Virus record (IMG/VR): IMGVR_UViG_3300010938_000950
Location: 1-64,000 of that record
DNA: 64,000 nucleotides
Source: a virus
Reading direction: 5' to 3' (one strand)
Below, piece by piece: positions 29,072 to 32,472 of the stretch. Each line of letters opens with the position of its first letter. Position 1 is the first letter of the stretch. A program made the position numbers and the translations under genes. The notes under the pieces are model-generated. The model did no database searches, was not told the origin of the DNA, and saw only the letters and a program-made list of their open reading frames with translations.

Positions 29072-29755
29072 ATGCCAAAGTTTGATAGTCCAATTGGAAG
29101 TAAACAATTTTCTAGTCCTCCTATGAGAGATTTTAGTGTGCCTGATGAAAGTGGTTATGAACCACCACCTCAAATGCCACATCGTCCAGCGAGGCATATG
29201 AATGAACCTCCTGTATTTGATGAAATGGCTATGAGAGAATTTCAAGCACAAATGCAGCCTCCAATGGGCTCTCCGGTTCGAGAAATAACAGACGTAGAAA
29301 AGAATATTTTAGCAGCAAAGAAAGCCAAGCGTGAAGGTAAAGAAAGGCTATCAGAAGGCGCTAAACGACGTATAGAAATGCTGATAGGCATGATTAGACT
29401 GTCCAGGGAGGTTGATATTGGTGGACAAATGTATAAGTTGCAAACGTTGACTTCGCAAGAGTTGCGTGATGCGCTTGTAGCCACTGCTGAGTTTGACGGA
29501 ACTGTGGAATTCATTTTTGAAACTAGAAAACAATTACTTGCCCGTTCTTTAGTTGTAGTATCTGGAGTTGAAATAGAACAATTTTTACACTCTAGAGAAT
29601 TAGAGGATAAATTATATTTTATTGAATTACTAGACCATGCTCTTTTAACAAGATTATATAATGAATATTTAGAATTAGCAAAAGAAGCTCAAGATAAATA
29701 TAGCCCCAAGACTGATGCTCAGGTCAAGGAGGTTGTGGAAGACCTAAAAAAATAA
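29072..29755 (+). CDS. Tail assembly chaperone, first frame
   Basis: 227 residues with GGAG before the ATG. The N-terminal 75 residues are Pro-rich and disordered (PPPQMPHRPARH); the rest is helical and charged (LTSQELRDALVATAEFDGTV, ELLDHALLTRLYNEYLELAK). It sits between tube and tape measure genes, the fixed place for lambda gpG/gpGT-type chaperones that coat the tape measure during assembly. Its last codons contain A AAA AAA directly before the TAA stop, and the -1 frame then stays open for 119 codons. Ribosomes slipping there would make a 346-residue fusion. Confidence 0.85.
   Translation: MPKFDSPIGSKQFSSPPMRDFSVPDESGYEPPPQMPHRPARHMNEPPVFDEMAMREFQAQMQPPMGSPVREITDVEKNILAAKKAKREGKERLSEGAKRRIEMLIGMIRLSREVDIGGQMYKLQTLTSQELRDALVATAEFDGTVEFIFETRKQLLARSLVVVSGVEIEQFLHSRELEDKLYFIELLDHALLTRLYNEYLELAKEAQDKYSPKTDAQVKEVVEDLKK
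29746..29752 (+). promoter_or_regulatory. Slippery heptamer A AAA AAA for -1 frameshifting
   Basis: Seven A at 29746-29752 are phased as A AAA AAA in the chaperone frame, the X XXY YYZ arrangement used for -1 slips, with the stop TAA next. After a slip the frame reads IINEPEHRFHWYLM and continues through the next gene. No stop interrupts the junction. Confidence 0.85.
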
Positions 29756-30111
29756 TAAATGAACCGGAACATCGTTTTCATTGGTATTTGATGAAAATGA
29801 AGAATACTATCCATGTAGATGATCCTGAAATTGTCGAAATGGATCCGGTTCGTAAAATGTGGCTTTTTGAACAATGGTTGGGCGATCATCGTGATGATGC
29901 CGAACTAGCTAAAAATCACGCATATCTATTAGGGTCTTTCTGGAATGCTGAGGCAGTCCAGCAGATGCTTAATGATAATGTTCATGAATCCTCAGATGAA
30001 GATATGGAAGAATCCATGCGAATGGTTACGGAAGGTTTGCCTGGAATATTTGATGTACCACAAGAAAAACCTCTACCTAGAAGAAAACGTAGAGCCGCTC
30101 TAAAGGAATAA
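29752..30111 (+). CDS. Tail assembly chaperone, -1 frameshift extension
   Basis: 119 codons in the -1 frame, ending 3 bases before the tape measure gene. It is probably made mainly as the C-terminal part of the fusion: no Shine-Dalgarno sequence precedes its possible starts (TTG 29788, ATG 29791, ATG 29797), and the frame is open back to the slippery site. The chain is acidic and helical (FEQWLGDHRDDAELAKNHAY, VQQMLNDNVHESSDEDMEES) with a basic end (LPRRKRRAALKE). In lambda the equivalent T domain recruits the tail tube protein to the chaperone-coated tape measure; the same is inferred here. Confidence 0.82.
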   Translation: MINEPEHRFHWYLMKMKNTIHVDDPEIVEMDPVRKMWLFEQWLGDHRDDAELAKNHAYLLGSFWNAEAVQQMLNDNVHESSDEDMEESMRMVTEGLPGIFDVPQEKPLPRRKRRAALKE

Positions 30112-30114
30112 TAA

Positions 30115-32472
30115 ATGGCCGATCCACCAACCCCATCAGATCCAACAACTACAGTAGCAGCTCCTACTGAAAGTCAGCTTGATGCATGGCAAGCATTAGA
30201 TAGATATGCTGCTGCTTCTGGTGCAACATTACAGGGTGTGGGAACTATAAGCTCTGCTGTTGGTGATATTTTTACTGGCCTATCTGATTCTCTTAAAAAA
30301 GCCGGACTTTCACTTAATAGCTTGTCAGATAGTTCCAGTGTTGCAGCTAGACAAGCCGGATTGCTGACCACAGCTTTCTTGGGTGCTAGGGAGGCTTTTG
30401 TTAATATCGCTAATGTTGATTCATCTAGATTAGTTACTACTGGAGATCAGCTTAGAGATTTATATGAAATTATCAAAACAGGTCCTGGAACTGCGTTGGC
30501 AGCTAAAGCCATTGAAACAGTACTAGGAGCAATGACGTCTCTTGGAGCATCTTCCGATACAACCAGGAAAGCACAACAAGAATTAAAAAGCGGAGTAATG
30601 AATACTGCAATGGCGTTTTTTACTAGCGCTGATAATGTTAAGCGTCTACAAAACTCCATGATACAAATGACGGTCAGTGGAAGCGGACTTGATAGTTTAT
30701 TAAAAGCCGTTGGATCAGATTTTCAAAATCTAGATAAAGTAAATCAACAGTATGTATCAACTTTAAATAAAGTCACAACAGCTTTAGGTGGAACTAAAAA
30801 AGCACAAGAATTAGCCGCATCATATATGGCAACTATTAATCAAATTCCTGGTGGCTTATCATTACTAACCAAAAATACAGAAATCGCCGGTAAACAGACG
30901 GACCTATTAACAGCAACACTAAATATTGCATCTGCCTCTGGAAGAGATGAAAAAGAAGTATTAGCAGACATTACCTCTGTTGTTAGAAGCTACAAATCTG
31001 CTTTAGATGATTCCAATGAGGTTGCTGGTGCTGCCGCTACACTTACAAGTAGAATGGGAGAAATAGCTGGACATCTAGGGGCTAATATTAAGGATGTACA
31101 TAGTGCCCTAATGGAATCTACAGACGCTTTTAAAATGTACGTTATGGACGGTGCCGATGCTGCTAAAATGACACAAGGCATGGCACAGGCGATGGAAAAT
31201 TATACTTCTAGTTTAGAAGCAGTTGGTGTACCAGCAGCAAATGCTATTGAAATGTTCAAAAACTACACCAATGTTATGAAGAATATGAACACTGGTCAAC
31301 TAGCATTTATTTCTACAATGTCTGGAGGCGCTGGGGGCTTACGAGGCGCTCTTAAAATGCAAGAAGATATTGCCAAAGGAAATATTGATGAAATAAGGCA
31401 AAGAGTAGAGGCAACTATCAAGAGAATAAGCGGCCCACTTATTACCAGAGAAGAAGGTATGAGAAGTGAGGCTGGAGCTGCCCAATATATGAGGCAAGTA
31501 CAAATTTTACAACAGGGCCCCCTCAGCAGTATGGCTCGTTCTCCAGCCGAAGCAGAAGCTCTTATTAGAGCAATGAAAGAGGGAAGAAGACTTCCAGCAA
31601 CAGAGGCAGCTAGGGCAGAAGACCCTATGAAGGGTATGCAAGATGCTATGAAAGCTGGCCAGAAAATACAAAAAGACTCGTATAGTGTTTTAGTTGACAT
31701 TAACGCCTCTCTCAATGAGTTGGTTATGCAAGCCGGCTTAGCTAATCGTAAAACCGAAAGAGAAATTCTAGGAACTAGGAATCTCGGAGCTTATGGTGGT
31801 GGAATTGGTGGTGGTGGCGGAGGTATTACACCTAGTCCAACCGGTGTAGTAGGCCCTACTACTACAGATTTAAGCAAAATTTCAGATATTGCTATCAGTT
31901 TACCTAAAACTGTTAAAGATGCTTGGGATTCTTTTAAAGAGGTATTAGGAACAGGCAACAAAGAATCTATACAAAAAGCTAATGATAAAATGTTAGCTGC
32001 CATTAAAGAGCAACAAGCCGTTTGGGGCTCCTTGTCGGACAGTCAAAAATCTGCAATGACAACTGTTCAACAAGCATTTAATGCAGCCAAAACAGAGACT
32101 GCAACAACAACACCACCAACTACTGCCACTAGACCGGGCACTACTGGTCCGGCCGTATCCCCTACAGGTACAAGACCGACCACCGCTGCTCCAAGAATTA
32201 ATTTTACACCAATAGAAAACTATGCAAGACCAGGACAAAGAATACCCGCGCCATTACCACCAACAACTAATGCACCTGCTACCACGGCAGGTACGGCAGC
32301 AAGACCAACTGGTGGCCTTGGAACGGGCGCTCCTGGACAAGCAGTTCCAGTCACTTTAGCACCAGGATCTGCAATAACCGTCAATTTTACTGGCGCATGT
32401 CCTCACTGTGGAGGAAATATCCGTCACGGCACAAATGGTGTAGTTTCACCACAATCTGATCATCCACACTAA
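30115..32472 (+). CDS. Tape measure protein
   Basis: 785 residues with AAGGA before the ATG. Long amphipathic helices fill residues about 20-570 (QAGLLTTAFLGAREAFVNIA, GSGLDSLLKAVGSDFQNLDK), with several small-residue and hydrophobic stretches, followed by a Thr/Pro/Gly-rich linker at about 640-760. At roughly 1.5 angstrom per residue a fully helical protein would set a tail near 115-120 nm. The C-terminus has Cys762, Cys765, His771, His783 and His785, which could bind zinc. Its place after the frameshifted chaperone supports the call. It controls tube length and enters the cell with the DNA in known systems. Confidence 0.85.
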   Translation: MADPPTPSDPTTTVAAPTESQLDAWQALDRYAAASGATLQGVGTISSAVGDIFTGLSDSLKKAGLSLNSLSDSSSVAARQAGLLTTAFLGAREAFVNIANVDSSRLVTTGDQLRDLYEIIKTGPGTALAAKAIETVLGAMTSLGASSDTTRKAQQELKSGVMNTAMAFFTSADNVKRLQNSMIQMTVSGSGLDSLLKAVGSDFQNLDKVNQQYVSTLNKVTTALGGTKKAQELAASYMATINQIPGGLSLLTKNTEIAGKQTDLLTATLNIASASGRDEKEVLADITSVVRSYKSALDDSNEVAGAAATLTSRMGEIAGHLGANIKDVHSALMESTDAFKMYVMDGADAAKMTQGMAQAMENYTSSLEAVGVPAANAIEMFKNYTNVMKNMNTGQLAFISTMSGGAGGLRGALKMQEDIAKGNIDEIRQRVEATIKRISGPLITREEGMRSEAGAAQYMRQVQILQQGPLSSMARSPAEAEALIRAMKEGRRLPATEAARAEDPMKGMQDAMKAGQKIQKDSYSVLVDINASLNELVMQAGLANRKTEREILGTRNLGAYGGGIGGGGGGITPSPTGVVGPTTTDLSKISDIAISLPKTVKDAWDSFKEVLGTGNKESIQKANDKMLAAIKEQQAVWGSLSDSQKSAMTTVQQAFNAAKTETATTTPPTTATRPGTTGPAVSPTGTRPTTAAPRINFTPIENYARPGQRIPAPLPPTTNAPATTAGTAARPTGGLGTGAPGQAVPVTLAPGSAITVNFTGACPHCGGNIRHGTNGVVSPQSDHPH

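Follow-up and report, generated by a model that had tools for sequence, protein, structure and literature searches.

The window, meaning the whole stretch of 64,000 nucleotides that was analysed, is part of a 209,766-base IMG/VR virus record. All features described below are located on its plus strand. ORF1 (29072..29755) encodes a protein of 227 aa, which was assigned to the short form of a tail assembly chaperone (TAC-N, gpG/gp181-like) by its predicted fold, by hhalign matches and by the TAC PHROGs matched in its relatives. The gene ends with GAC CTA AAA AAA TAA, where the slippery heptamer A AAA AAA (29746..29752) has the canonical X|XXY|YYZ phasing and directly adjoins the zero-frame stop codon TAA (29753..29755); the next triplet, at 29756-29758, is another TAA. 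From stop to stop, the -1 frame is open at 29716-30108 and, counted from the slip, comprises 119 codons (29752-30108) ahead of the stop codon at 30109-30111. As ORF2 (29752..30111), this frame would supply a C-terminal extension of 119 aa (T-domain) after a -1 slip, resulting in a predicted fusion product of 346 aa. Both the heptamer followed by TAA and the 119 open codons up to the gene end had been proposed in an earlier sequence-only reading of this locus and could be confirmed. The earliest ATG, GTG or TTG of the -1 frame is a TTG at 29788, 12 codons past the slip, and no Shine-Dalgarno sequence was found before this first possible ORF2 start.

Both strands of the window were scanned for ORFs of at least 60 codons whose last 60 nt contain an in-frame slippery heptamer leading into a -1 frame open for at least 60 codons, and the end of ORF1 was the only one detected in the 64 kb. 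The gene order is sheath, tube, ORF1/ORF2 and tape measure, followed by more tail genes. The sheath gene was identified by a PHROG tail sheath match (E 5e-16), and no good family match was obtained for either the tube or the tape measure gene, so that these two are named by their position in the gene order. With this proviso, the placement of the chaperone between tube and tape measure in the sequence-only reading is right. The presumed tape measure gene (30115-32472) is short (785 aa), and its product ends C-terminally in a CPHCGG zinc-ribbon-like motif. Elsewhere in the 209.8 kb record, one tRNA gene was detected, a tRNA-Glu (TTC) at L225:1468-1542 (record position about 205468).

The assignment of both proteins rests largely on their homology to gp181 and gp182 of phage G. 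The AlphaFold model of ORF1 (pLDDT 81) was searched with Foldseek and matched phage G gp181 with an E-value of 6e-7 and a TM-score of 0.79 by target, as well as phage G gp182 and other annotated tail assembly chaperones. In hhalign comparisons with phage G, ORF1 reached a probability of 97% (E 8e-11), and the profile comparison of ORF2 with the frameshifted part of gp182 resulted in 89% (E 2e-6). Some relatives match TAC PHROGs, and PHROG_25000 was matched by seven of them with ORF2 (best E 3e-5). A PDB search with ORF1 revealed 3klu (YqbN) as a weak match (probability 0.69) that is not significant. The chaperone proteins gave no match in Pfam or NCBIfam, and the fold search with ORF2 yielded nothing usable. 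The conservation of the ORF2 protein (EPEHRFxW) starts three codons past the slip, ahead of any usable start codon. The homology of both halves to gp181 and gp182 supports a chaperone switch of the gpG-gpGT type, as the sequence-only reading had suggested.

Since ORF1 alone as a query found no relatives among viral contigs, these were gathered via the tube protein (62 loci) and via an ORF2 alignment (80 more), two sets that overlap. After removal of near-copies, 66 distinct main-clade sequences remained, all at least 10% apart in the signal region. The p-values and codon tests given below treat these representatives as independent; given the size of the effects, their non-independence should not alter the conclusion. 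Searches of an isolate phage collection with ORF1, ORF2, the tube protein and the proteins of the +1 clade described below found no relatives by sequence, and none were found in one scan of genome contigs. Three loci (L057, L017 and L053) were considered as exceptions and rejected, as they hold other genes or no recognisable chaperone beside the tube gene; in L017, the normal signal is present further along. In L057 (4935-6152), the place of the chaperone downstream of the tube gene is taken by unrelated coding sequence, perhaps of the homing-endonuclease type, in which Cys/His-rich segments are repeated.

In all 66 main-clade relatives, A AAA AAA is found in phase and ORF2 in the -1 frame. 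The stop codon directly follows the heptamer in 61 of them, and in the other five one sense codon (TCA, three times TCG, CCA) stands between. One sequence, a close relative of the window (L087:2333-3354), has lost the downstream stem P1 (see below) and carries the sense codon CCA ahead of the stop. Where the stop is the next codon, it is TAA or TAG and never TGA, which is explained by the coding need, as TGA would change the first -1 codon from Ile to Met. The Leu codon preceding the two Lys codons has the form NNA in 61 of 61 cases (background 0.615), and both heptamer Lys codons are AAA throughout (132/132, background 0.70). The first -1 codon encodes Ile in 65 of the 66 sequences, and 61 of these 65 codons are ATA (background 0.31). 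Because ATA at this place puts TAA or TAG onto the heptamer, the position of the stop is itself selected beyond the protein. Among the compared sequences, this codon choice shows selection on the nucleotides of the heptamer and the stop that goes beyond the coding need. The second -1 codon (in the 29744-29757 region) is likewise ATA in 50 of 51 Ile codons, which the stop does not require, and CTA, with 35 of 61 sequences, is far more frequent as the Leu codon ahead of the heptamer than its background share.

An internal Shine-Dalgarno sequence, AAGGAGGT (29726..29733), is located 12 nt before the heptamer and is subject to selection at synonymous sites. The Glu codon at position -5, which makes GGAGG, is GAG in 53 of 56 sequences (background 0.315), whereas the Glu codon at position -2, three codons further on, is GAA in 51 of 52; this opposite choice indicates that the Shine-Dalgarno sequence is held at one distance. 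The Lys codon at position -6 is AAG in 31 of 46 sequences (background 0.30), and in some members the G-run is retained via a change from Glu to Gly (GGG). The motif is absent from about ten relatives. For bacterial -1 frameshifting, Shine-Dalgarno sequences have been searched at 6-17 nt (PMC4066793), and the 12 nt of the window are slightly outside a quoted spacing range of 8-11 nt (PMC6321510).

Downstream, at a distance of 8 nt from the heptamer and 5 nt from the stop, the 5′ arm GAACCGG (29761..29767) of a stem termed P1 begins, and its 3′ arm CCGGTTC is located at 29845..29851. In the fold predicted for positions 29759-29853 of the window, P1 is the closing stem of a junction that contains two inner hairpins, and this RNA has a minimum free energy of -32.5 kcal/mol (z -4.96). 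Codon 5 (CCG) and codons 34-35 (CCG GTT) of ORF2 are frozen at their synonymous sites, and CCG is rare at other Pro codons. All seven pairs are formed in 51 of 63 sequences, and the two arms are lost jointly (Fisher p 4e-6). One relative (L049) carries a compensatory pair (GAATCGG/CCGATTC), and two others (L045 and L118) the G-U intermediate. In a scan of a region of about 390 columns, P1 was the sole pairing of 6-7 bp present in more than 75% of the 63 relatives. For the 51 members with P1, a mean z of -2.73 was obtained against synonymous-codon shuffles. RNAalifold predicted no structure for all 63 sequences because divergent members break P1, and assigned P1 a probability of about 1.0 for the 51 sequences with all pairs; about eight relatives are without the stem. 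Both AAGGAGGT and the downstream RNA junction, as judged from their conservation, are likely stimulators of slippage, and both are of types known from -1 frameshifting in bacteria. The upstream Shine-Dalgarno sequence and the strongly folded RNA had been missed by the sequence-only reading.

A further segment inside ORF2, block 3 (GCTAAAAATCACGCATATCTATTAG, 29908..29932), is conserved at synonymous sites. No pairing partner or other role was found for it, and a weak TAATA/TATTA 5-mer was not accepted as a partner. The 18-mer AAAAATCACGCATATCTA of this block was found exactly in 63 viral stretches, many of them chaperone contigs already collected, and the 23-mer TAAAAATCACGCATATCTATTAG occurs only once in this virus record with up to three mismatches allowed.

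In nine distinct sequences (L064-L067, L071, L072, L149, L150 and L155), ORF2 is located in the +1 frame. All nine have NNN AAA AGY where the main clade has AAA AAA, and the site contains only 4-5 A's. Past AAA AGY, the residues of the ORF2 frame are conserved (K V/A V/A R/K T/L P E/D; KVVRTPEH), whereas those of the ORF1 frame vary (SGQDT, SGTDA, SGEDA, SGANT, SGKNA, SGEAP, SS), which places the predicted frame change of this clade at AAA_AGY. The fusion junctions are collinear, with KK|IINEPEH in the main clade and K|VVRTPEH in the +1 clade. The upstream Shine-Dalgarno sequence is also present in the +1 clade, and a consistent downstream structure was not found there. Two other routes were rejected for this clade. 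A slip at NCC_TGA, resembling the antizyme site UCC UGA, does not occur in L071 and disagrees with the conservation of the ORF2 frame, and not the ORF1 frame, from AAA_AGY to the stop; a -2 shift would result in re-paired codons such as GGA, CCA or CGA. In the tree, one branch supported at 99% separates the -1 from the +1 sequences, so that one change of direction suffices. As a tentative reading, held with less than even confidence, the chaperone lineage may have changed direction once between -1 at A AAA AAA stop and +1 at AAA_AGY, with the same residue of the fused protein at the junction, the Shine-Dalgarno sequence kept and the downstream structure on the -1 side only.

Taken together, a programmed -1 ribosomal frameshift very probably generates two forms of the tail assembly chaperone, where slippage in the cell and the function in the tail are deduced from sequence. 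The majority of ribosomes would terminate at the UAA after ORF1 and release the 227-aa short form, and a minority would slip by -1 on A AAA AAA and read 119 codons more into the 346-aa fusion. Like in lambda gpG/gpGT, the extension should connect the tube protein with the chaperone bound to the tape measure. Behind the ribosome, AAGGAGGT would pair with the 16S rRNA, and ahead of it the RNA junction closed by GAACCGG/CCGGTTC would be met, both aiding the slip. As the stop is the next codon, non-slipping ribosomes would terminate at once. Slippage may take place with the two Lys codons in the P and A sites or in the next step, when UAA has moved into the A site, and in the latter case it would compete with the release factor. 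It is plausible that termination and slippage compete at the stop in this way, and such a competition agrees with the selection seen for the stop position. When RF2 is absent, -1 slippage of 70S ribosomes is supported by a structure located 5 nt after an A-site UGA (PMC6321510), and the same spacing of 5 nt from stop to structure is found in the window. A stop after the slippery site makes frameshifting sensitive to the release factor (PMC4373837). Two published observations speak against this reading: in E. coli, shifting is weaker at A AAA AAA than at A AAA AAG (PMC5009743), and in the case of a modified HIV site, a next-codon stop reduced frameshifting (PMC4373837).

The fusion could also originate from transcriptional slippage, in which RNA polymerase adds one A in the A7 run and the A8 mRNAs are read straight through. 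The extra A would yield an identical protein, and A7 is invariant; the selected Shine-Dalgarno sequence and stem P1 are left unexplained by this mechanism, however, and the same proteins are fused in the sister clade, whose site has no more than 4-5 A's. Transcriptional slippage usually needs longer A runs, and its contribution here is considered very improbable. An error of sequencing or assembly in the homopolymer, with A8 and one fused gene as the true sequence, comes to mind for metagenome contigs with such a run. Its chance is negligible, as A7 is found in all 73 distinct sequences from many samples and the sister clade shows the same two-frame layout without a long homopolymer; going by the relatives, this explanation is already refuted.

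Even less expected than polymerase slippage is the arrangement as two separate genes, with ORF2 translated by termination-reinitiation or from a weak start of its own, for example TAATAAATG followed by TGATG at 29789-29793. A mini-ORF of the window that starts with ATG (29759-29791) ends in this TGATG and overlaps an ATG in the ORF2 frame, but this ATG is not conserved, since codon 14 of ORF2 is Cys in 51 of 63 relatives. In addition, the conserved EPEHRFxW is located upstream of it, and the heptamer would be needless. The sequence-only reading had noted a second frame without a ribosome binding site and had regarded relatives with their own start and ribosome site as an argument against frameshifting; of the 66 relatives, one has a tetramer resembling a Shine-Dalgarno sequence close to the first start of ORF2, and 65 have none. 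The conserved heptamer that it had asked for in related phages is there in all 66 of these main-clade relatives, and the comparison strongly supports its interpretation.

The function of the programmed frameshift is of a known kind, and the layout of the signal and the switch of direction are new. This locus extends what is known of frameshifting in tail chaperones by a whole lineage of uncultured large phages, in which a three-part signal (Shine-Dalgarno sequence, heptamer on the stop, RNA junction) has been mapped and is conserved in more than 60 sequences. With a stop in the A site, it becomes directly testable whether bacterial ribosomes slip before the next codon has entered the A site or only afterwards. 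The +1 sister clade represents a natural experiment in which selection appears to hold the fusion constant and to let the direction vary.

Among known systems, the E. coli dnaX gene shares an A-rich heptamer, an upstream internal Shine-Dalgarno sequence and a downstream structure with the window. It differs in being a cellular gene with A AAA AAG and a shortened product, where the window has A AAA AAA and a lengthened one, and the Shine-Dalgarno spacing of the window (12 nt) is slightly longer than quoted for dnaX. The dnaX stop is not known to lie directly on its heptamer. A stop codon right after the slippery heptamer is known from eukaryotic viruses, in unrelated genes (PMC4373837). For the myovirus tail assembly chaperones of Vandenendeviridae and Andersonviridae (phage Adele), conservation of a -1 shift has likewise been shown by a comparison of many genomes; their motif is GTTTTT, and the parts of that report considered here do not mention a Shine-Dalgarno sequence or RNA structure (PMC12846349).

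In lambda, the gpG/gpGT gene is likewise located between the major tail protein and the tape measure gene and has a -1 shift near its 3′ end, and the longer product is the minor form, as is predicted for the window. Lambda requires gpG and gpGT at about 30:1, and its T part is thought to recruit the tube protein (PMC5009743). The lambda heptamer G GGA AAG is different and lies 15 nt ahead of the stop, and in the SEA-PHAGES training set the mean distance between heptamer and stop is 26 nt (PMC10885494). The heptamer directly on the stop, called unusual in the sequence-only reading, is thus unusual compared with lambda and not compared with the Bacillus phage G (NC_023719), whose site GAA TTA AAA AAC TAG has the heptamer A AAA AAC on the stop as well. 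Its gp181/gp182, a short form and a joined long CDS annotated as tail assembly chaperone beside the tape measure gene, are homologous to both halves with a -1 shift, and a weak AAGGA 12 nt upstream and a folded downstream RNA (z -3.0) are also present. Phage G differs in the final C of the heptamer, in its long C-terminal extension and in a predicted fold without the GAACCGG/CCGGTTC stem, and at 22-26% identity it is a very distant relative.
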